This document shows, piece after piece, positions 596-11,073 of a stretch of DNA of 11,164 nucleotides. A program made the translations under genes and the position numbers. Location: positions 8,655-19,818 of the forward strand of contig CAMYKE010000010.1 of NCBI GenBank assembly GCA_947258895.1, given 5' to 3'. Within the stretch, counting starts at the first letter, position 1. Every line of letters starts with the position of its first letter. This DNA comes from an uncultured Pseudomonadales bacterium (GTDB taxonomy: Bacteria; Pseudomonadota; Gammaproteobacteria; Pseudomonadales; IMCC2047). The notes beneath the pieces were generated by a model, which had not been told where the DNA came from, ran no database searches, and saw nothing but the letters and a program-made list of their open reading frames with translations.

Positions 596-1615
596 CTAGG
601 CCGATAGCACCTGGATCCTGTACTCCCCGGTGTGCACTGGACTATAGTGTCTGACCCGTGCGTAATACTGGCCGGGCTGCAGCGATGCGTTGATCAACGC
701 ATTGGTGCCCACTCCTCCATCATCGTTCTCAGCGATCAGATCCGTCGGATTTTCGGGCCCAAACAGGGACAACACGACATCCGTGGACCCCGCGGTCTGG
801 ACGATGTAATTACCCTCGTTCTTGATGACGAATTTATAGAGGTCTTCCTCGCCCGCTGCAGAAATCTCGGCGGCGGCCGCGGTCCACACGGGAAGCTCGA
901 TTGCTTTTTCTTCGGGAGTCTTGCGTCCCGGGTACATTTCTTCACTTTTTACGAACAATCTGTCCAGTATGGACAATTCGTCGTTCTCCCGGGTCCCGCC
1001 GATATTTTCTGTCCACGAATCCGGAAACGCGTACAGCATGATGGATTCGGGGTCGAAATCCGTGCCGTTGACCTGATCCGCAGAGTATTTATTGAGCACG
1101 TTGTGCCGAATCGTCGCCTCGTCCCAGAAATTAGGTGGCCCGGACAGGTCCCTGATTACGGCTTCTTCGTTCCACTCAATTCCGCCATCCGGATTCTGGT
1201 GTTCGTGTCCGAGTCCGATCATGTGGCCGAATTCATGCAGGATGACGGCTTCATCCTGCCATCCCAGGTTCAATGTCGCGGCGTGCAACGGAATACTGAG
1301 ATTGTCTGTACCTACATACGACCAGGCGCCATCGTTGGCATCGAATGACACGCGAATCTTTGCTCGCGGATCGCTCGTAAACTCGAAATGGAGGTTAGCG
1401 TGCTCAGTCCATTGCGGCGCGAACTGCATGACCATGTCCTGTTGCTGCTGAGTTCCACCCATGAAGCGAATGGTGATGGTACTGCCATTGACCCACTGCT
1501 TGCGTTTGGGGCTGACCGCACGCACGCGGCCACCAGCCAACATGCGTGTGGCTTGCGGTCGACCGATTTCAGTGGGGAGCAATTTATCAAAACAGATATG
1601 AGGTGCTTTTGCCAT
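596..1615 (-). CDS. Leaderless astacin/matrixin-like zinc metalloprotease with C-terminal PPC domain
   Basis: This is a predicted zinc endopeptidase of the metzincin clan. Residues 127-138 read HEFGHMIGLGHE, the extended HExxHxxGxxHE site: His127, His131 and His137 bind zinc, Glu128 is the catalytic base, and the trailing Glu fits the astacin (M12A) type. A Met-turn, SIMLY, follows at 191-195 with Met193. The catalytic part covers about 40-230. Residues about 245-337 look like a bacterial pre-peptidase C-terminal (PPC) beta-sandwich, with a DLYKF start and a GQYYARV strand. The start is well fixed: SD GGAGGA lies 7 nt upstream (complement of 1623-1628), and an in-frame TAA (1634-1636) excludes a longer N-terminus. 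No Sec signal peptide is visible, which is odd for a protease with a PPC domain. It may act in the cytoplasm, leave by another secretion system, or be released by lysis. Leaderless astacin-like proteins such as the Legionella effector LegP look similar from memory, but that link is untested. Confidence 0.85.
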   Translation of the reverse strand: MAKAPHICFDKLLPTEIGRPQATRMLAGGRVRAVSPKRKQWVNGSTITIRFMGGTQQQQDMVMQFAPQWTEHANLHFEFTSDPRAKIRVSFDANDGAWSYVGTDNLSIPLHAATLNLGWQDEAVILHEFGHMIGLGHEHQNPDGGIEWNEEAVIRDLSGPPNFWDEATIRHNVLNKYSADQVNGTDFDPESIMLYAFPDSWTENIGGTRENDELSILDRLFVKSEEMYPGRKTPEEKAIELPVWTAAAAEISAAGEEDLYKFVIKNEGNYIVQTAGSTDVVLSLFGPENPTDLIAENDDGGVGTNALINASLQPGQYYARVRHYSPVHTGEYRIQVLSA

Positions 1616-2539: not shown

Positions 2540-5056
2540 TTAGTTTTTGCCGAACAGACGGCTGAACCAATTTTCAGATTGCCTTCTGAATTTCGTAACT
2601 TGGAGATTTTCCAGTTCCTTAATGAACTGTTCTGCAGATTGGTAGCGTGCGTCGGGTTCAGGCGCGGTTGCTTTGCGGCATATCTCGCTTAATGAGCGTG
2701 GGACCTTTGGGTTGACCTCTCGCGGATCCTGTTTTGCTACGCGTGAGTTCCATCGCTTACCCGTCAGTAGCTCGAACATCACAACTCCGAGGCCGTATAG
2801 ATCTGACCGAGCATCGATAGCGCTGGGGTTTGCTAGCGCCTCCGGACTCATGTAGTTCATTGTGCCCATTGTGACCCCAAATGCAGTTACATCGGAAAGG
2901 TTCTGCCGTTTGGCGATCCCAAAATCCGTCAGAAGATAACGATCCTGTCCAGAAATCAGGATATTGCCTGGCTTGATATCACGGTGAATGACGCCCTTGG
3001 AGTGGGCATAATCTAATGCGTGCGCAACCTGCCGTACAATGGAAAGGGTTTGCTCGGGAGATGTTGCACCCTTATCCACTAGCTGAGTCAGATCTCCTCC
3101 TTCAACGTACTCGAAGGCCATATACATAAGGTCTTCGTGGCGGCTGAAGTCGTACACGGCAACAATGTTTGGATGACGAAAATTCGCAATGATTTGTGCC
3201 TCCTGCTCAAAACGCTTCATCCACTCCTCGGAGTCGAAACGCAATGAAAGCAGTTTCAGTGCCACCTGGCGATTGAGGGCTGGATCCCTGGCTAGATAGA
3301 CCGGCCCCATCCCGCCTTTTGCAAGCAGGTGCACGATTTCGTATTTCCCGATTCTTCGGCCGTGTTCGATATCAACGTCTGGTGCCGTCGCCGTTGGTGG
3401 TAATGTAATATCCAGTGCTGGCAAAAACTGAGTTGCATCGGGCGACTCCTCCGCGCCATATGAGCCCGTGAGAGCGGCCTCATCCGTGACTCGAGATACA
3501 TTGCGGCTTATATCTCGGGGATGAGTGAAACTGAGCTTCAGATAGTCATCATCGCCGCCGCCGGACCATCGAAAATTGGGCTCAGTTGTGCGATTGAAGT
3601 ACTCCTCAAATAGTGTAAATCCTCGGCCAACACCTTCGTAGGCCAACAGTTGGGATAGATACCAGGTAATGGCAGCATCGTTTGGCACTGATACTTTATC
3701 GCCATGGAGGAACGATTGAAACGTGCGGTGGTTGGGCATCGCTCCGGGGCTGAAGATCTCAATTCCGGGATAGTTAAATGCGACTTGAACGATTTGAGGG
3801 AGTTGATAGTCTCGATGCACAACGGCGTTGGAGATGGCCTCCCTGATCACACGAAGAAATAACTGCTCGAATTCCTCGAGTTTTGATTCTCTCATATGCC
3901 GGACTACTTCCGTGCGCGTCAGATCGAACAGTCGTCGGACCTGGAATGCCAACGGACCGACAATATCAACGCGTCGGAAGTCGTCCGTAGTCTTATCACC
4001 CACTGTGAACAAAGCGCGGGCCTGAGGAACGAATCGATGCGGTTCTCGGGCAAAACACAATACTGCGGCCAAATGCAGTTTTCCTTCTGAAATTGGGCTG
4101 TATAGACCCAGCCTGGCGGCGGCATCACGAACGTTCTCGTGCGCGATGTTTGCGTTGTCTCCAATGTGTTGTGCAAACTCGCTGATTGCGTCGAGATCTA
4201 AGTCCTCGACCGTGACACCAGGACACGGGTGTCGTGACGCTTCAGTCTGCTCATAGAGGAGCCGCAATTCGTCAAGTGTACGGCTGGTCTTGCTGGACGC
4301 TGGTTGATCTTCGGTTGGTCCCCCGCTGCGTCTAAACCGATCGTGGGCCAACCATACTTGGCGGTCGGCATTGTCTACCCCGTAAGCGGGCGACTGGGGA
4401 TAAGAAGAATATCGCGCCATCGTGAGCTGGTTATTGACATAGCCAACGATGTCCTCTGGTCCAATGTAACCATCTGGTGTGGAGCGTCCTCCGAGTCCTG
4501 TCCGAATACCTTCGCAGAACAGATGTGTAAACACGCTGGCGGAACCATCCTCGAGTTCATAGCTGCTTTCGGTAGCGCGGCTCGAGGTAATTACCACGAG
4601 GCCGCGCGGTAGGTCGTGAAGTTCAGGGGGGTCCAGGCGACACAGTTTTTTTTGTCCGTGCTTGAGCGCCGCCCCGCTGTAGCACGCATCCAAAACCACA
4701 ATGGCCCGAGTGACACCTTGCGCCTGAATATCCGTCATTACATTACCGAAAGGCACGCTGGTCCGTGCACCTTCTTCTCCGAAAATCAGTGAATACATAC
4801 CGTGCTGAATTTCTCCATGGCCGGAAAAATATAAAATCAACTGGTCTAGATGGTGCCAGTCCTCGAGAATCTGCATCAACGCATCTAGGAATTGGTTGCG
4901 TGATGCACAATCTTGCAGAAGTGAGGTGCCTTTGGTTCGACAATCGCCCAGTAGAGGGTCACACAATATCGAGTGTACTTGGTCTGCATCTCTTCGGCTG
5001 GCCTGAAGTTCTGGGCCAGACTGGGCATTTACGACAAAAGCGTAGCGTGTGCCCAC
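2540..5056 (-). CDS. Caspase-like protease / RecG-C-like HATPase / Ser-Thr protein kinase fusion
   Basis: This 838-aa protein carries three recognisable modules. Residues 1-240 are a C14 caspase-like domain: YFSGHG (76-81) supplies His80, LDACYSGA (122-129) supplies Cys125, and a p10-like part with ITSSR (156-160) and SVFTHLF (174-180) follows. Residues about 285-512 match the C-terminal part of RecG-like/AlbA-HATPase_c_4 proteins: a GKLHLAAVLCF strand, a REAISNAVVHRDY N-box (405-417), an FSPG box (435-438) and a glycine loop EGVGRG (474-479). Residues about 569-815 are a Hanks-type kinase: loop AKGGMGPV (579-586), Lys601, Glu619, HRDIKPGN (691-698), DFG (711-713) and SPE (737-739). There is no signal peptide and no membrane helix, so it is cytosolic. 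The start is GTG, 4 bp after the upstream stop, so the two genes are co-transcribed. The first Gly of the kinase loop is Ala579. All main catalytic residues of the protease and kinase are present, so both are probably active. The likely role, by analogy with bacterial conflict systems, is a gated death protease; the trigger is unknown. Confidence 0.93.
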   Translation of the reverse strand: MGTRYAFVVNAQSGPELQASRRDADQVHSILCDPLLGDCRTKGTSLLQDCASRNQFLDALMQILEDWHHLDQLILYFSGHGEIQHGMYSLIFGEEGARTSVPFGNVMTDIQAQGVTRAIVVLDACYSGAALKHGQKKLCRLDPPELHDLPRGLVVITSSRATESSYELEDGSASVFTHLFCEGIRTGLGGRSTPDGYIGPEDIVGYVNNQLTMARYSSYPQSPAYGVDNADRQVWLAHDRFRRSGGPTEDQPASSKTSRTLDELRLLYEQTEASRHPCPGVTVEDLDLDAISEFAQHIGDNANIAHENVRDAAARLGLYSPISEGKLHLAAVLCFAREPHRFVPQARALFTVGDKTTDDFRRVDIVGPLAFQVRRLFDLTRTEVVRHMRESKLEEFEQLFLRVIREAISNAVVHRDYQLPQIVQVAFNYPGIEIFSPGAMPNHRTFQSFLHGDKVSVPNDAAITWYLSQLLAYEGVGRGFTLFEEYFNRTTEPNFRWSGGGDDDYLKLSFTHPRDISRNVSRVTDEAALTGSYGAEESPDATQFLPALDITLPPTATAPDVDIEHGRRIGKYEIVHLLAKGGMGPVYLARDPALNRQVALKLLSLRFDSEEWMKRFEQEAQIIANFRHPNIVAVYDFSRHEDLMYMAFEYVEGGDLTQLVDKGATSPEQTLSIVRQVAHALDYAHSKGVIHRDIKPGNILISGQDRYLLTDFGIAKRQNLSDVTAFGVTMGTMNYMSPEALANPSAIDARSDLYGLGVVMFELLTGKRWNSRVAKQDPREVNPKVPRSLSEICRKATAPEPDARYQSAEQFIKELENLQVTKFRRQSENWFSRLFGKN

Positions 5057-5060
5057 GGCG

Positions 5061-5066
5061 TCACCT
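5061..5066 (-). promoter_or_regulatory. SD overlapping the upstream stop codon (translational coupling)
   Basis: On the minus strand, AGGTGA sits 4 nt before the GTG start at 5056 and contains the TGA stop (5063-5061) of the upstream small gene. It is complementary to the anti-SD and supports GTG rather than a downstream start. Ribosomes finishing the membrane protein would be placed to begin the caspase protein, suggesting matched synthesis of the two. Confidence 0.5.
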
Positions 5067-5444
5067 AGGCAGGAGGTTGATCGTGAGCTGATCCGGATCC
5101 TCGGACTTGAGGTTTGTGATCACGTTACGCAGTTCGTTCTTGTCGATATTGTCCAGTTCATAGGTTACTTTTCGGGACTGAACGGAGACTTTGTATTTAG
5201 GCCGGGTACTACTCCAATAGCTGAGAACAGTAATCAAGGTGGAAATTGCGCTCAGGCCTAAACTTGCGATCGCTAAAGCAGTAGTTACACCTGCGTCTTT
5301 CTTACCTTGCGCGATCGTTTTCTTTGCATTGACGTCAATGTCATTCTGGATCAACAGATCCGCAAGGGAGTCCAAATCGTGGGCGAGATCTTTGTTAATT
5401 GCACCGAGTATACTGAAGCTTATGGAGATGGAGGGGTCGCTCAT
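5061..5444 (-). CDS. Small single-pass membrane protein, EACC1-like partner of the caspase effector
   Basis: This is a 127-aa protein. A longer reading to 5630 adds 62 residues that look non-coding. ATG 5444 is preferred because SD GGAG (complement of 5450-5453) lies 5 nt upstream. The layout is a short beta-type start (4-13), an acidic helical part (about 18-35), one membrane helix (about 52-77), and a basic turn leading to a C-terminal beta-strand and helix part (84-109). The order of helical region, small-residue membrane helix, KYKVSV and YELD strands, and a final helix resembles effector-associated constant component 1 (EACC1) proteins, which sit beside protease and other effectors in bacterial conflict operons. 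The family call is from memory of the pattern, not a search. Four bases separate it from the caspase gene. It probably anchors or senses at the inner membrane for the cytosolic effector. There is no signal peptide cleavage site. Confidence 0.8.
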   Translation of the reverse strand: MSDPSISISFSILGAINKDLAHDLDSLADLLIQNDIDVNAKKTIAQGKKDAGVTTALAIASLGLSAISTLITVLSYWSSTRPKYKVSVQSRKVTYELDNIDKNELRNVITNLKSEDPDQLTINLLPR

Positions 5445-5480
5445 TACTGCTCCGTCATGCCTCTTTGGGCTAAATATTTG

Positions 5481-5537
5481 AAAGGGTACCAGGAAGAATA
5501 AACACCCTTTTTGTACCAGGCAAGCGTTGGAGTACAA
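5481..5537. repeat. Cluster of inverted and direct repeats (possible operator)
   Basis: Three exact repeats interlock within 57 bp. AAAGGGT (5481-5487) pairs with ACCCTTT (5504-5510) across a 16-nt loop. TTGTAC (5511-5516) pairs with GTACAA (5532-5537) across 15 nt. GTACCAGG occurs directly at 5486-5493 and 5513-5520, 27 bp apart. The cluster lies about 40-95 bp upstream of the EACC1-like start and overlaps the candidate promoter. It could be an operator; the first dyad followed by TTTTT could also form a weak hairpin in plus-strand RNA. Confidence 0.5.
5510..5537 (-). promoter_or_regulatory. Candidate promoter of the EACC1-like/caspase operon
   Basis: On the minus strand, TTGTAC (5537-5532) is followed after 16 bp by TACAAA (5515-5510). 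Each half matches the sigma70 consensus at about four of six positions. Transcription would start near 5503, giving a leader of about 58 nt before ATG 5444. It overlaps the repeat cluster described separately, which fits regulation by a DNA-binding protein. Moderate to low confidence. Confidence 0.3.
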
Positions 5538-5896
5538 GGGTTTATGCGAAGCCTCGATGAAAAACATCAGATCTTGCTTCTTGCACCACCGAAATTTCCG
5601 TTTGTGCGTAGGCAATGCCGTCCAAAACAAACACTACGACTGTTGATTTTCAGCGATTGTTATTCCACGATTTGCATTGAATTTTGTGCCAACTTTATTA
5701 GCGCAATTTTAAGGCTGTCTGGGCTTATCGCCACGTGGAGTAGCACAACAAGTAATTGCACTATCTTCCCGAAGTGGGTCACACTAACATGCGATTGTAC
5801 AGCTAAAGTGCGAATTGCAGCTATGGATTGGGAGCGTACTTCCAGCTTGCCAACGAATATGATCCGCCCCCCACACATCGTAAAGTAGTCTGAAAT

Positions 5897-6952
5897 ATGA
5901 CAGAACAGGCTCAGGCATTACCCAAAGACAAGTCCCGGAATAGCCAGTTACTGGTGCGCACCGTTTTATTAGCCATTTGGGTCGCTCTGGTCGATCTCTG
6001 GCTGGCACGACATTTTCGTACCGGCCTGAGTATTAACGAATTATCGATGACCGTCGGGGTACCGTTGGCAAGTCTGTTCAGTGTCGGGGTGGTTGATTAT
6101 CTCGTGGGCCGGGACAGCAGGGAGTCCGCTGTCGATTCCATAAAGAATTATTTCCGCCACTTCATGACGACGCACTTAAGCACAAGGGTGCTGTCCCTGC
6201 TGTTTATTCTGAGCACGGCTATTGCCGCCACCTATTCCACTATCAGTATTGCACCAACCGGGGGCAACCACGAAATAACCGTGACACCGGTTGCTTTACA
6301 GGAACCGGTGATCAGTGATCACATTTCCCCCTCTTCGGCCAAGGATATTCACCTCTGGATCAACCCCTTTGCAACCCGGTACGAACTCGCAATCAGTGGC
6401 TTTTTACCCAAAGTAATCACTGTCAAACCCTTTCTGGGAACAACCATTCTTCCAGCCATCGATTTGTTGCAAATGCCAACCGTATTGTTCCGTCCGTCCA
6501 TCAAGAGTTACGAAGTTCTTGGCAGTGGCGGTCAGCTTGAGCTCTACCGTAAAGCCAATGAGACCTTTGAAAAAATTGCCGAGGATTCCGGTACCCACGC
6601 CTGGTATATCGGCGCAAGGCGCAATCAGCCTGGTGAACTCAGAAACGAATGGCAACTAGAAGCCCAGGCACTGGGACTTGGTGAGCAGGTAATTGCAATT
6701 CTTATGAAACGCTGGCGCAATCCTAAACTGCTAACTACTGTGGCTCTTGGGCCGGATGAAATTATTTGCGCGCTGGTGTCTAATGTCGAAAGAAAGGTTA
6801 TTGTAGCCGGGGTGGTGGGAACCATTGAAAGGCAGGAATATATCGATCTACCCCTTGGAGATATCGAAAATGATGTGGCCAAAGTTCATAACAACACCGA
6901 TGGCAATCCTGGCAGTAACGTTTGCAATTGGCTCGATGGGGGCGCTGGCTGA
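5897..6952 (+). CDS. Unrecognised membrane protein with three N-terminal helices and a large C-terminal domain
   Basis: This is a 351-aa protein whose N-terminal third is hydrophobic: membrane helices at about 19-37, 51-70 and 97-118. A charged loop (71-95) separates the second and third helices. The remaining residues (about 120-351) are soluble and rich in beta-type sequence. If the basic N-terminus (KDKSRNS) is inside, three helices place the C-terminal domain outside, in the periplasm, which fits the two exported proteins encoded next. No SD is obvious before ATG 5897, so the exact start is less certain. I know of no family that it matches. It is the first gene of a three-gene unit and its end overlaps the next gene by 83 bp. 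An anchor or scaffold for the two exported partners is a reasonable guess only. Confidence 0.8.
   Translation: MTEQAQALPKDKSRNSQLLVRTVLLAIWVALVDLWLARHFRTGLSINELSMTVGVPLASLFSVGVVDYLVGRDSRESAVDSIKNYFRHFMTTHLSTRVLSLLFILSTAIAATYSTISIAPTGGNHEITVTPVALQEPVISDHISPSSAKDIHLWINPFATRYELAISGFLPKVITVKPFLGTTILPAIDLLQMPTVLFRPSIKSYEVLGSGGQLELYRKANETFEKIAEDSGTHAWYIGARRNQPGELRNEWQLEAQALGLGEQVIAILMKRWRNPKLLTTVALGPDEIICALVSNVERKVIVAGVVGTIERQEYIDLPLGDIENDVAKVHNNTDGNPGSNVCNWLDGGAG
6857..6860 (+). promoter_or_regulatory. SD that selects the start of the second operon gene
   Basis: GGAG lies 9 nt before ATG 6870. In-frame alternatives are a GTG/ATG-type start near 6825, which would add 15 residues before the signal peptide, and ATG 6900, which has no SD. 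The 6870 start places a normal hydrophobic signal peptide at the N-terminus. Confidence 0.45.
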
Positions 6953-7727
6953 CGCCGAGCGACAGATCCGGGTCGAGCTGGATCTCGGTAATTCGTATCG
7001 GATCGCGCTTGGAGAAAACGCCGCGAAAGAGGCCAAAATACTGGCGGAAGCTGCTCTGACCAAAGCGCTTGGTGAAAAAATAAAATATTTTACTTTCGTA
7101 TCTTCCGCCGCAACCGGTTCCCACACGCTTTCATTTCGAATTGACCATCCCACCCCCGACGAGACCAGATCGAGTGCTGTGAGCCTCTTTGATTACTACC
7201 TGTTTTTAGACTTCAAGAAAAACAATGGAGGAATTACCAAATCATTGCAATGGTTGTTCAGGGACGCAGCCTCCAGCCTCAATGGCGTCGATACCCCGGA
7301 GACCATAGCGGCAAAACTGCGCTCTGACGTCAGCGAGAGGCAACACGAAAAGATCATTACGGATTTGCTAAGCCATGCAAGTTTTACCGAAAAGGCACGG
7401 TTCAAACCGGACGGAACGAAGGGCTGGATCATTGAGCATTCGCGACAGTCCCTCTGCATGGCGCCAGACAGCGAGTTGCAGATCGAAAGCATCGTCCCTC
7501 CCGAGGGTTTTGAAGATTCTTTCCTGGCGGAAGTAAAACGCCGTCAGAGCGGCGATGAAGCAAGCACCTTTACCCGGGCGAAAGACAACGTGGAACCTCT
7601 GATGACCGATCCTGAAAATGCGCGGGTCCTGGCCATTTATGTCATTAATTACGAGGCAGAGTGTGAACGTACCGTGACAGAAAGCACGCCGACGATGGTG
7701 ACGTTTTCCGAGGGAGGGGGGTCATGA
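6870..7727 (+). CDS. Exported protein of unknown family
   Basis: This is a 285-aa protein from ATG 6870. The N-terminus is a Sec signal peptide: Lys5, a hydrophobic core (about 8-22) and an A-L-A site before DAE, so cleavage is likely near residue 27. The mature part opens with alternating strand-like sequence (RQIRVELDL), then Ala/Lys/Glu-rich helices, and holds only two Cys residues far apart. There is no lipobox and no second membrane helix, so it is probably periplasmic. I do not recognise a domain. It starts inside the end of the upstream membrane protein gene and overlaps the next gene by 4 bp (ATGA), which implies coupled translation of all three. A role with the adjacent membrane protein and TPR-like protein is inferred from position only. 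Confidence 0.85.
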   Translation: MMWPKFITTPMAILAVTFAIGSMGALADAERQIRVELDLGNSYRIALGENAAKEAKILAEAALTKALGEKIKYFTFVSSAATGSHTLSFRIDHPTPDETRSSAVSLFDYYLFLDFKKNNGGITKSLQWLFRDAASSLNGVDTPETIAAKLRSDVSERQHEKIITDLLSHASFTEKARFKPDGTKGWIIEHSRQSLCMAPDSELQIESIVPPEGFEDSFLAEVKRRQSGDEASTFTRAKDNVEPLMTDPENARVLAIYVINYEAECERTVTESTPTMVTFSEGGGS

Positions 7728-9559
7728 AAACCGCGTTACTAATCGGCCTGCTGCTGTTAATTCCAGGCCCGGGACTGGCATACGAACAGGCGCTGCAAGA
7801 ACAGGTAGCAGCGAAAAACTGGCACGCCGCGGACAGGATACTCAGGTCCGCCAAAAGAGAATGTCATGCACAGGATGGTGTCGGAAAATGCAAAGATAAA
7901 ATTGCCTTCTCGCACGCCTGGGTGAATACCAGACGCGGGGATGAGGGCGGTGTGCATAGCGCGCAATATTACCGGCGTGCCGCAGCCGGGTATCAAGCGG
8001 TGTTACGCGATAACCCGGGGCATTTGCCCACGCTCGACAACCTGATTCTGGTGCTGGAACAGCTGGATGATCGCGCGGGCCTGGAGGTTATGCTTGCGCA
8101 ACTCACTCAAACCAGGGAACTCGCGCGCGCCGCACAGGTCGCGCTGATAATCGCCAGTAGTTACCGCGCCGAGAATAACGCCGTGCGTGCCTTTGCGTAT
8201 TACCTTCGCTCCTATGAGCTGGGAAAACAACCGCAGGCATTCAAGGGCACTGTTGCGGCTTTTGAAGCTGCGCCGAACCAGGACATGGGAAAACGCCTTT
8301 TAGACCTGGGGCGGGCAGAGGATAATCTAACCAATCGCATTCTGGTATGTGAGGCGCTGATTCGAAACCGGGAGTCAATAGATTATTCGCTGTGGGAAAG
8401 TGCAACCATAAGCTGGCTGGCATGGATGGGGCGTGCACGTCTGTTAACCCACCAGGTCGTCAAACAGTCCTTTGATCTGGGGGCTAACCCCGAGTTGCGT
8501 GACCTGTTCGACTCGCTCAGGGATCCCGGGTTAAGACTCGAGGAGAGTGAATTGCAACTCAGTCGGATGACCCTGGCAGATCGTCGCATTGACGGCTGGT
8601 GGTCGGATAGCCTGGTGCGCAGCTGGGCATACGCCATTGCTGCGTGGAGTGAGGGCCACAACCGGTTGGTGGCTGGCAAGGTGCATGAAACCAACAGTAT
8701 ATGGCTGGCCGCTATGCAGTATGCGCCGCCCACCTACGCCTATGATTCGAACGAACTGCAGGGACGCTGGGCAATTTCCCTCGAATTGATCACGGATTTC
8801 GCACGCCTGCAACAATTGTATAAAGCGCAACTGGATCCGGATGGAAACGTGTTTCGCAGAGTTGAACGGCTGTTATTTGACAGCAAGGCCCAGGCGTACA
8901 AGGTCAACGATTTGGTAGCTATCCAGCGGCATCATACCTTGATGGGAAAAATGTATGCTGATATCGGGATTTTTTCACAAAGGGATCACGGCGCACGCAG
9001 CGCGGAGTTCCAGCTCAAGCACGCGCTAAAGACCGCCCGGCTCAGAAGCGAAGAAACCCGCGTTGAAGACCCCCAGCCCAGCGTGGCCAGATTGCTGGGC
9101 GACGGCTACAGTTGCCAGCTGCCCAACCAAAAAAGCTGTACCCTCGACGATAAAAAAGCGGTGCATTACTACCAGGGAGCGGTCACTGATTTTATTAAAC
9201 TGGACGCGGTCGAGCCCGCTCGACAATCTCTCCAGGCACTAAAAAAATACCAGGTGGAACCCGTCGAAGAAACTATTCAACTGCAAAACCTCATCGATAT
9301 TCGCGCAAGTTTACCAATGGATAGACCAGTGACAAGCCGGGACGATCCCGATGTTTTGAGCAGGCAAATCGATCTCGCCAACCAATGGCAAAAACTGGGA
9401 GACAGCGCGAGAGCGCGGGAAAGCCTGGATCAGGCGCTGCAGGGAAGAGTAGTCGAGACCGAGAAAGCCGAGCTGTACGAAAGTCTGCAAAAGGGTGATG
9501 TAGAAAAAATCAAGAAATCAAGCCGGGATAAGCTATTGATTTACAAAAAGGCGCAGTAG
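7724..9559 (+). CDS. Exported alpha-helical TPR-like repeat protein
   Basis: This is a 611-aa protein. The start is firm: ATG overlaps the previous stop (ATGA) and SD GGGAGG (7712-7717) lies upstream. Residues 1-19 form a Sec signal peptide ending G-L-A before YEQ. The mature protein is helical throughout, with TPR-like pairs at about 80-118 (YYRRAAAGYQAVLRDNPGH followed by LDNLILVLEQ), about 138-168 and 541-575, and a further one near 470-505. Cys47 and Cys56 could form a disulfide. Such solenoids bind partner proteins, so it probably organises a periplasmic or envelope complex with the two upstream products. No enzymatic motif is visible. The specific family is unknown to me. No clear terminator follows the TAG stop. 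Confidence 0.85.
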   Translation: MKTALLIGLLLLIPGPGLAYEQALQEQVAAKNWHAADRILRSAKRECHAQDGVGKCKDKIAFSHAWVNTRRGDEGGVHSAQYYRRAAAGYQAVLRDNPGHLPTLDNLILVLEQLDDRAGLEVMLAQLTQTRELARAAQVALIIASSYRAENNAVRAFAYYLRSYELGKQPQAFKGTVAAFEAAPNQDMGKRLLDLGRAEDNLTNRILVCEALIRNRESIDYSLWESATISWLAWMGRARLLTHQVVKQSFDLGANPELRDLFDSLRDPGLRLEESELQLSRMTLADRRIDGWWSDSLVRSWAYAIAAWSEGHNRLVAGKVHETNSIWLAAMQYAPPTYAYDSNELQGRWAISLELITDFARLQQLYKAQLDPDGNVFRRVERLLFDSKAQAYKVNDLVAIQRHHTLMGKMYADIGIFSQRDHGARSAEFQLKHALKTARLRSEETRVEDPQPSVARLLGDGYSCQLPNQKSCTLDDKKAVHYYQGAVTDFIKLDAVEPARQSLQALKKYQVEPVEETIQLQNLIDIRASLPMDRPVTSRDDPDVLSRQIDLANQWQKLGDSARARESLDQALQGRVVETEKAELYESLQKGDVEKIKKSSRDKLLIYKKAQ

Positions 9560-9747: not shown

Positions 9748-11073
9748 ATGACTGAACACAACCATCGCCTGTTCGCCAGAGGCATAAAATCGCTGTCGAC
9801 GATTGAAGCAAACGAGATCAAGGCCACCTTTCTTTCCTTCGCCTTCGTCTTCATCCTGATGGCGGCGTATTACGTGTTGCGTCCGATACGCGATGCGATG
9901 GCGAGTGACTGGACCGATGCCGAAGTCAGCTGGCTGTGGACCCTCAACTTCTTTATCAGCACGGCAATGGTGGCGATCTGGGGATTTGCGATAGCACACA
10001 TACGCTTTTCCAGACTGGTTCCCGGTATCTATCTCTTTTTCGCCGCCAGTTTTGTATTGTTCTTTTTTGCCTCTGAATCGCTGGAGGATCGCGTGCTGGT
10101 GGACAAGGGCTTTTATCTGTGGGTGAGTGTGTTCGCACTGTTTCACGTGTCGGTATTCTGGAGTTATATGGCCGATGTCTTCAACAAGGAGCAGTCTAAA
10201 AGGCTGTTTGCGATCATCGCTGCTGGCGCCAGTCTAGGGGCCATTTTCGGGCCGCTCCTGTCGGGCGTGATATCCCATCTCATCGGTGTCGATGCCATGA
10301 TGCTGCTGTCGGCCGTGATGCTGATGCTTCCAATCCCCATTATTCTGTATCTGGCCAGGCTGAAACAGACAGAACTGGGCAATGCCGAGGCCACGGTGGA
10401 TATCGAACAGGTTAAAATCGGTGGCAATCCGCTGACGGGCTTCCGCGATTTCTTTACCCATCCCTACCTGCTGGGAATTGGCGTCTTCATCATTCTCTAC
10501 ACAGGTATCGGCTCATTTGTCTATTTTGAACAAAAAAACCTGCTGGCCGAATTCACCCGCGAGCAACGCGCTTCCATTTACGGTTATCGTGATGCGCTGG
10601 TCAATACCCTGACCTATTTACTGGCGTTCTTTGTGACCGGTCGCCTGGTCACGAGGCTGGGCATGCCCATTGCGCTTGCCGCAGTGCCGGTAGTTCTGAT
10701 ATTCGGGATGCTGGTTCTCGCCTTTTCTCCCGTGCTGATGGTAGCGGTCGCAATGCATGTCGCGCTGCGGGCCGGAAACTATGGTTTGACCCGGCCCGCC
10801 AGGGAGATGCTATTCACCCTGGTAAGCCGTGAAGACCGCTTTAAGGCGAAACCGGTCATCGACATCGTGGCCTACCGCGGCGGCGATGTAATTATGGGCT
10901 GGTTTTTCACCGCACTGAGCACGGGTTTGGGCCTCGGGATGGCTGCGATAGCGGCGGTGGGCGCCGGATTGGCCGCGCTATGGGCGTTGTTCGGCTTGCT
11001 ACTGGGGCGATCCTTTGACCGCCGCGAGGCTGGTACCTCCATTGACGTCGCCACTGCCACGGCAGAGCGTTAG
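9748..11073 (+). CDS. Tlc/NTP-NDP exchange-type carrier (MFS-like)
   Basis: This 441-aa polytopic inner-membrane protein has about 11-12 helices. Family features are YYVLRPIRDA after the first helix (41-50), SYMADVFNKEQSKRLF (139-154) and the stretch around SREDRFKAKP (360-369) with YRGGD (376-380), which I associate with Tlc nucleotide carriers and their free-living MFS-like homologues. It is shorter than the roughly 500-residue ADP/ATP translocases of Rickettsia and Chlamydia. In those parasites the family swaps host ATP for ADP; in free-living bacteria the substrate is generally unknown, so nucleotide transport should not be assumed. ATG 9748 has only a weak GAAGA upstream. The C-terminal tail after 421 is polar and cytosolic. 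It is separated from the TPR-like gene by 188 bp and is probably independent. Nothing further is seen in 11074-11164. Confidence 0.85.
   Translation: MTEHNHRLFARGIKSLSTIEANEIKATFLSFAFVFILMAAYYVLRPIRDAMASDWTDAEVSWLWTLNFFISTAMVAIWGFAIAHIRFSRLVPGIYLFFAASFVLFFFASESLEDRVLVDKGFYLWVSVFALFHVSVFWSYMADVFNKEQSKRLFAIIAAGASLGAIFGPLLSGVISHLIGVDAMMLLSAVMLMLPIPIILYLARLKQTELGNAEATVDIEQVKIGGNPLTGFRDFFTHPYLLGIGVFIILYTGIGSFVYFEQKNLLAEFTREQRASIYGYRDALVNTLTYLLAFFVTGRLVTRLGMPIALAAVPVVLIFGMLVLAFSPVLMVAVAMHVALRAGNYGLTRPAREMLFTLVSREDRFKAKPVIDIVAYRGGDVIMGWFFTALSTGLGLGMAAIAAVGAGLAALWALFGLLLGRSFDRREAGTSIDVATATAER

Follow-up and report, generated by a model that had tools for sequence, protein, structure and literature searches.

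A candidate EACC1-caspase-type operon with a caspase–GHKL core and an exchangeable C-terminal module, here a PknB-like kinase

INTRODUCTION

The EACC1-caspase system is a predicted two-gene conflict system (System 4 of Kaur 2020, PMC7159879). In the main text of that paper, a 5′ gene encoding a protein with a single transmembrane (TM) segment is paired with a 3′ gene whose product has an N-terminal caspase and a highly variable C-terminus, for which up to 50 different domains are given, and it is considered possible that EACC1 senses at the membrane and activates the caspase. Here we analyze an 11,164-nucleotide stretch from an uncultured Pseudomonadales bacterium (GenBank assembly GCA_947258895.1, contig CAMYKE010000010.1, positions 8,655 to 19,818 of the forward strand), hereafter the window, which carries a gene pair of similar layout. 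The second gene encodes a protein composed of a caspase domain, a GHKL-related ATPase-like module and a Ser/Thr kinase. With moderate confidence, we take the locus to be an operon of the EACC1-caspase kind, in which the caspase and the GHKL module form a constant core and the C-terminal part can be swapped; in the window this part is a PknB-type kinase that looks active. The steps of the mechanism are inferred.

Other described proteins share parts of this design. The EACC2-caspase systems, as presented in the text of Kaur 2021 (PMC8195603), also combine a constant module and a caspase with a variable C-terminus, where S/T/Y kinases are found. However, the α+β EACC2 domain of those proteins lies in one chain with the caspase and N-terminal to it, whereas in the window the caspase is N-terminal and the GHKL module follows it. 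The canu caspase–nuclease system (PMC12799240) likewise places a bacterial caspase in an operon-encoded defence system, and it sets a precedent in that its caspase activates a partner effector. It employs a paracaspase with an Ig fold and a separate gated nuclease, and neither GHKL, EACC1 nor a kinase is among the parts described in its text. The SLFN AlbA_2+HATPase_c_4 ('RecG-like') proteins, represented by PDB 3lmm, have a C-terminal part homologous to residues about 241–490 of the window protein, but an AlbA_2 nucleic-acid domain where the window protein has its caspase. Finally, among the 35 accessory Pfam domains reported in a survey of 473 cyanobacterial orthocaspases, HATPase_c and HisKA occur in 4 each, while HATPase_c_4 and Pkinase are absent from the accessory-domain list in the survey's Table 1 (PMC8283722).

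RESULTS

A gene pair with an uninterrupted three-part protein

All coordinates are positions within the window, and both genes of the pair lie on its minus strand. Gene 2 (2540..5056) runs from a GTG start at 5056 to a stop at 2540 and encodes 838 amino acids; the plus strand across the same interval is interrupted by many stops. The GTG start is consistent with the alignment, since most relatives in the kinase clade described below have a methionine at the same column. An earlier note on this DNA had described an uninterrupted 838-residue frame with caspase, ATPase-type and kinase modules, and this description is borne out, on the minus strand. The residues it named are all found at their positions: H80 in SGHG, C125 in DACYSG, the N-box REAISNAVVHRDY at 405–417, K601 in VALK, HRDIKPGN at 691–698 and DFG at 711–713. 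It had also proposed counting the proteins with all three domains. There are at least 14 besides the window, 13 of them in the window's clade, and because they keep the caspase, the GHKL module and the kinase in the same order, the arrangement is not a chance fusion. A frameshift or fusion artefact is ruled out by the same observation.

An AlphaFold2 model of gene 2, computed with 23 sequences, has a mean predicted local distance difference test score (pLDDT) of 80.6 and a predicted template modeling score of 0.44. Values of pLDDT below 50 are restricted to residues 134–147 (a caspase loop), 243–254, 515–560 (the linker before the kinase), 713–727 (after the kinase DFG) and 836–838.

The stop of gene 1 (5061..5444, ATG at 5444) lies at 5061, 4 bases before the GTG of gene 2. 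Gene 1 encodes an EACC1-like protein of 127 amino acids with one TM-like segment (residues 56–74, hydropathy peak 2.09). A profile of the upstream proteins of 12 relatives (A3, from which the window was excluded) matched gene 1 with E=8e-28, the runner-up among 117 frames having an E-value of 1.6. An EACC1-like gene was present directly upstream at 13 of the 14 relative loci examined, including all seven with a GHKL module (L001, L002, L003, L005, L006, L015 and L019); L004 and L011, which also have the module, begin inside the gene at a contig end and were left out of this count. The other six of the 13 (L007, L008, L009, L010, L012 and L020) carry the same caspase clade without GHKL, so that the GHKL module is constant in one large sub-branch and not in the whole clade. 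At the sole locus lacking the upstream gene, L018, the caspase gene itself is broken. Scans for promoters and terminators in 5400–6000 and for Rfam families across the window found nothing.

The caspase and the GHKL module form a core with exchangeable C-termini

A protein search with residues 1–545 yielded 48 proteins, among which is that of the window itself, and identity to the window protein in this set is 32–49%. An alignment-based search (A1) contributed the best 120 of 193 matches, the lower part of which consisted of plain kinases and was set aside. Using two half-core profiles, we recognized both the caspase and the GHKL module in at least 65 proteins besides the window, five of them partial. 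The counts over 66 aligned cores given below leave out P0001, the window's own copy with a late start, and keep the five partial proteins.

Among members of the 1–545 search without a kinase, similarity mostly stops near residues 486–508. Beyond this point the proteins of the family carry a kinase, NB-ARC/TPR, NACHT, FGS, CHAT, pentapeptide repeats, PNP, FtsK, HD-CE, NA-iREase1, HEAT, trypsin or nothing recognized; two further tails, the vWA of L002 and the TIR of P0037, score below the Pfam cut-offs. P0015 and P0050, both Symploca records, are 84% identical over residues 1–533 and then unrelated, one continuing into pentapeptide repeats and the other into NB-ARC/TPR.

The relationship between core and tail was followed on a 61-row tree, built by a quick method with Shimodaira–Hasegawa-like approximate likelihood ratio test (SH-aLRT) support only, from which P0001 and the partial proteins P0071, P0072, P0075, P0076 and P0079 were left out. 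Tail labels were assigned by hand from precomputed Pfam lists, and the label 'none' may hide undetected domains. Fourteen kinase-bearing rows, including the window, fall into one clade (SH-aLRT 95), indicating that the kinase version is an inherited architecture. All 15 kinase-bearing rows together need two origins: P0030 stands apart from the clade, has an EAD5 domain before the kinase, and its kinase looks degenerate (HRDVTPDN, DFD). Tail labels change 22 times on the tree, which lies between the least possible number of 10 and the shuffled mean of 32.9 and suggests that tails are partly inherited and often exchanged. STAND/TPR tails occur in 24 of the 61 rows, and sensor-like STAND/TPR or FGS tails in 28 of the 46 rows without a kinase. 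The earlier reading, three intact modules in a single chain such as has been proposed for conflict and cell-death systems, stands but is incomplete: it missed half of a two-gene operon, and it overlooked that the caspase and the GHKL module are the constant part and the kinase the exchangeable one.

Some individual proteins depart from this pattern. A planctomycete protein (L015:7992-11321) has caspase, GHKL, trypsin and NACHT domains in one chain, that is, two proteases on one GHKL core. The GHKL module also occurs without a caspase, behind a DUF4062 domain in P0041 and before a double-GTPase in P0080, so the N-terminal slot may be exchanged too. P0071, a partial protein of 390 amino acids whose C-terminus lies outside its record, is labelled as belonging to a Candidatus Pacebacteria metagenome-assembled genome (MAG); its 61% identity to the window core is the highest among the matches listed.

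The caspase domain retains its catalytic residues

The caspase domain (residues 1–240, 4337..5056) is supported by Pfam, the family profile and residue invariance. Pfam Peptidase_C14 matches residues 4–187 (E=2.4e-8), and the caspase-half family profile, in which the window itself is one row, scores the window at 336 bits. The dyad residues H80 (codon 4817–4819) and C125 (codon 4682–4684), as well as D123, are identical in 66 of the 66 aligned cores, and this invariance rules out a pseudo-caspase. Single-sequence phmmer of the caspase region found no match in PDB and a profile was needed; the core profile matched the metacaspase-4 structure 6w8s (E=9.4e-5), metacaspases being the nearest caspase-fold PDB sequences. 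At the thresholds used, NF047832, the model of EACC1-associated caspases, is the only NCBIfam model that matches the caspase part.

Following C125 is a variable loop (residues 134–148, 4613..4657) with a conserved G134-x-K136, modeled with pLDDT below 50 at 134–147. The K136 column is basic in 60 of the 65 rows with letters there (57 K, 3 R), while the adjacent columns are variable. We propose that this loop corresponds to the p20/p10 self-processing loop and would be cut at K136. Metacaspase-like caspases prefer a basic residue (Arg/Lys) at P1. From D123, found in 66/66 rows within DxCxSG, and from the metacaspase kinship, we infer a basic P1 preference for this caspase as well.

The middle module is related to GHKL proteins through the RecG-C branch

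The RecG-C/HATPase_c_4 GHKL module (residues 255–512, 3521..4294) was assigned from profile searches against PDB and from family members that pass the Pfam cut-off. On the window protein, HATPase_c_4 is marginal (residues 431–488, E=0.0095, 16.4 bits against a cut-off of 26). Five of the 20 scanned relatives score above the cut-off of 26 bits (P0037 55.8, P0032 38.4, P0027 30.5, P0022 28.3 and P0018 26.2 bits), as do L005 (54.5), L015 (45.0) and P0070 (27.2); the remaining relatives mostly reach 16–26 bits, and a few have no match. The GHKL assignment is thus firmer for the family than for the window protein alone.

Single-sequence phmmer of the GHKL region against PDB gave no match, so that here too a profile was needed. 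A profile of eight relatives, including the window, had 3lmm as its top match (E=3.7e-6), followed by the histidine-kinase ATPase domain of DevS (0.015), a GAF-domain protein (0.018) and DosT (0.52), with two PDB chains interspersed (E 0.038 and 0.18), probably by chance. The whole-core profile matched 3lmm with E=2.5e-7. Within the N-box (3806–3844), E406 and N410 (E-x3-N) are conserved in 62 of the 62 rows with letters there, and a G2-like EGVGRGF lies at 474–480. The order of helices and strands in the AlphaFold2 model is compatible with a Bergerat fold. Fold searches with the whole model returned lists filled by kinases and are therefore uninformative on the caspase and GHKL folds.

Searching plasmids with the core by tblastn matched 59 records, none of which spans 80% of the core. 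Among the best 25 of the 59, 23 align within residues 241–485 at 26–33% identity, and these are annotated as RNA-binding domain-containing protein, RecG helicase, ATP-binding protein, Fic family protein or transcriptional regulator, or have no annotation. L077 is a SLFN_AlbA_2+HATPase_c_4 protein. By these alignments, the module and the C-terminal half of AlbA_2/Schlafen-type regulators are homologues, and the caspase thus occupies the position that AlbA_2 has in those proteins.

The kinase is attached by a disordered linker

The linker (residues 513–566, 3359..3520) is largely disordered in the model (pLDDT below 50 at 515–560), and across the 14 kinase-clade members its length varies from 29 to 85 residues. 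The PknB-like Ser/Thr kinase follows (residues 567–823, 2588..3358; Pkinase match at 572–818, E=1.3e-50), and the VAIK, HRDxKPxN and DFG motifs are intact in all 14 members, the window included, so that the kinase looks active. Unlike PknB-type Hanks kinases, it has no PASTA match in Pfam, and hydropathy revealed no TM-like segment or extracellular sensor part in gene 2. Given that 46 of the 61 full cores have the caspase and the GHKL module without a kinase, the kinase is not a general requirement for caspase control. It may instead be cargo, an amplifier or a lineage-specific gate.

The core is rare and patchily distributed

Scanning genome contigs gave at least 589 stretches and 53 loci; plain kinases or AlbA_2-type proteins make up many of these loci. 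For each genome of the large samples, scoring was confined to the best few candidates, and the counts are therefore lower bounds. The core was found in at least 3 of 386 cyanobacterial genomes, namely the centre G001, G003 and G335 (the last with a broken caspase only); two of them, the centre included, have GHKL. In the family of G002, 6 of 61 genomes have the core and three of these the GHKL module, the centre being one. Around the planctomycete, Thiotrichaceae (caspase part only) and verrucomicrobial loci, it was found in the centre genome only, out of 294, 369 and 240 genomes. The core is thus rare and patchy. Two copies of the same caspase clade are apparently decaying: that of L006:7974-12625 (a Leptolyngbya record, with GHKL) is broken by a frame change, and that of L018:7956-8708 (a Trichodesmium record) by stops.

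Among the matches listed, the named caspase-clade loci are mostly cyanobacterial (Symploca, Okeania, Trichodesmium, Moorena, Leptolyngbya, Phormidium, Microcystis and Mojavia), with single ones from Thiotrichaceae and Planctomycetota. Many of these cyanobacteria are filamentous or colonial. Such hosts are in line with the link between EACC1-caspase systems and multicellular lineages drawn in the text of Kaur 2020 (PMC7159879).

In actinobacteria, 7 of 119 genomes have NF047832-type caspases at the threshold used, five above the model cut-off. Nine loci of this type, six of them above the cut-off, showed no GHKL after the caspase in the part covered, the frames of five of the nine running off the locus, and an EACC1-like gene lies upstream at only some of them. 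Viral contigs gave 10 distant matches, each with a caspase by profile and none with GHKL. An IMG/VR contig (L056:5662-7198) carries a caspase gene with a hydrophobic tail, as judged by eye; the gene immediately before it is of EACC1 size, has a hydrophobic stretch and is not recognized by the window-clade EACC1 profile.

Neighboring genes

Downstream of the pair lies an astacin-like metalloprotease with a PPC domain (596-1615, minus strand; NCBIfam AbsR1, 177 bits against a cut-off of 650). Divergent from the operon are three overlapping or abutting plus-strand genes (5897-9559). Their products comprise a protein with multiple TM-like segments, one with a single hydrophobic stretch at its N-terminus and a 611-residue exported-looking protein with a weak TPR-family signal; no Pfam family scores above its cut-off for any of the three. 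They are followed by a gene resembling a major facilitator superfamily/ATP:ADP antiporter (9748-11073, plus strand), 80% identical to a Pseudomonadales MAG protein, a match that indicates a probable gammaproteobacterial origin of the window. MoxR-vWA ternary systems were rejected, as no such domain is present in the eight window proteins scanned.

DISCUSSION

The gene pair, its intact active sites, the retention of caspase and GHKL module as a unit, the swapping of C-termini and the inheritance of the kinase version as one clade are established here at the level of sequence. As in the systems of Kaur 2020 (PMC7159879), the 3′ gene has an N-terminal caspase-superfamily peptidase and a highly variable C-terminal domain, and the gene directly upstream encodes a single TM-like segment. 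We propose that the EACC1-like protein tethers or senses at the membrane and recruits the core, which would be held there as a zymogen. Upon a trigger such as envelope or infection stress, the GHKL module would bind nucleotide and dimerize. Nucleotide binding and dimerization are features of GHKL ATPases such as HSP90 and MutL. Dimerization would bring two caspase domains together and activate them, and the caspase, with its basic P1 preference, would cleave itself within the loop at K136 before cutting other proteins, with growth arrest or death as the outcome. The kinase on its disordered tether may tune the core by phosphorylation, or be deployed once the complex is active. The GHKL module as a nucleotide-driven caspase dimerizer, the self-processing at K136 and the basic P1 preference would be additions of the present analysis to the class model of Kaur 2020.

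Several observations weigh against this assignment. The canonical G1 box of GHKL proteins is DxGxG, but the family has S/N-P-G at 436–438; nucleotide binding is therefore not certain, and we file the module as GHKL-related via the RecG-C branch rather than as a canonical GHKL ATPase. ATP binding by it is plausible. NF047832 scores the caspase at 87.6 bits against a cut-off of 140. PF19953 (EACC1) matches gene 1 with E=0.0094 and only 16.4 bits against a cut-off of 23.6; it matched 3 of the 10 EACC1-like proteins scanned, none above the cut-off. Profile–profile comparison of A3 with six genes in the EACC1 position of other caspase loci (A6) gave a probability of 89.7 (E=1.8e-6), but only one of those six passes PF19953, and hhalign against that one alone (L085) gave a probability of 2. 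Moreover, the clade's EACC1-like profile misses the upstream genes of L076 and L080-L093 at E<=1e-3, and within kinase-bearing members the upstream gene is known from the window alone, the others being protein records. PADLOC, run on six window proteins, gave no system-specific match: 40 families match gene 2, the best 25 of which all lie on the kinase region (PD-T4-6, mad6, C3a189, MkoA and PglW models), and gene 1 has only chance-level DRT matches (E about 0.04). Gene 1 is likely a divergent EACC1; alternatively, it may be a convergent small membrane protein.

What the kinase does can be read in different ways. It could be the effector: the caspase would cut the linker and the freed soluble kinase would phosphorylate targets in the cell. 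Auto-proteolytic effector release has been proposed for EACC1 systems in the text of Kaur 2020 (PMC7159879), and the intact motifs and the linker present in 14/14 members are compatible with it. However, no shared basic site is evident by eye in the linkers of the 14 clade members (P0030 excluded), and K/R residues are mildly depleted (72 versus 90.6 expected, P=0.02), which weakens the case for release by this caspase; in addition, the same position holds sensor-like tails in most of the non-kinase rows. We consider this explanation unlikely. The earlier note had proposed that the kinase acts as a sensor or gate, phosphorylating the core and so permitting or blocking the caspase. Because the C-terminal slot is often of the sensor type, a kinase may fill the same slot, and its confinement to one clade with conserved order suggests functional coupling. 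Nevertheless, gene 2 lacks both a TM-like segment and an extracellular sensor part, and from intact motifs one can conclude no more than that the kinase looks active. Gating by the kinase seems to us doubtful.

A different view would take the protein out of conflict biology altogether, as a signalling or regulatory protein of normal physiology (differentiation, stress or transcription) with RecG-C reflecting transcription-factor ancestry. The middle module is indeed kin to AlbA_2/HATPase_c_4 proteins, some of them annotated regulators, and no defence gene was recognized adjacent to the pair among the six window proteins scanned. The rare, patchy distribution and the C-terminal swapping with partner domains typical of conflict systems speak against this view, to which we give little credence.

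The earlier note knew of no described system with this exact three-part order, and this stands in part. EACC1- and EACC2-caspase systems with variable tails or kinases are on record (Kaur 2020, 2021), but the main text of Kaur 2020, as distinct from its source-data files and figures, never mentions GHKL, HSP90, HATPase, gyrase or RecG. In the literature searched, EACC1 and caspase occur together in Kaur 2020 and 2021 only, and GHKL, caspase and anti-phage in one paper, on CapK/CapS regulators as far as its text was available. The caspase–GHKL–kinase architecture appears in no title or abstract start among the matches listed, as distinct from supplements, figures and subscription papers. Our preferred reading is thus a variant of the predicted EACC1-caspase two-gene conflict system whose EACC1 and caspase score below the curated cut-offs, and in which the GHKL/RecG-C module after the caspase is the new part relative to that main text.

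A bolder reading, which we put forward tentatively and would not rate as probable, takes the caspase and the GHKL module as the core of two-gene, membrane-coupled death systems that would form a class of their own, as yet undescribed. A Schlafen-related, ATP-driven GHKL clamp would switch between an N-terminal effector slot (a caspase, or DUF4062 in P0041) and the swappable C-terminal slot, with the PknB-like kinase of the window's clade setting the caspase threshold. In that case, the GHKL clamp would take over the switching that STAND ATPases perform elsewhere. More generally, what looked like a one-off three-domain fusion becomes a testable family with a constant protease–ATPase engine, many interchangeable tails and one small membrane protein. 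In the P0015/P0050 pair, two tails can be compared directly, since the cores are nearly the same. The family would be an example of a caspase under the control of a GHKL-type module, and its kinase version would be a compact bacterial model of kinase–caspase cross-talk.

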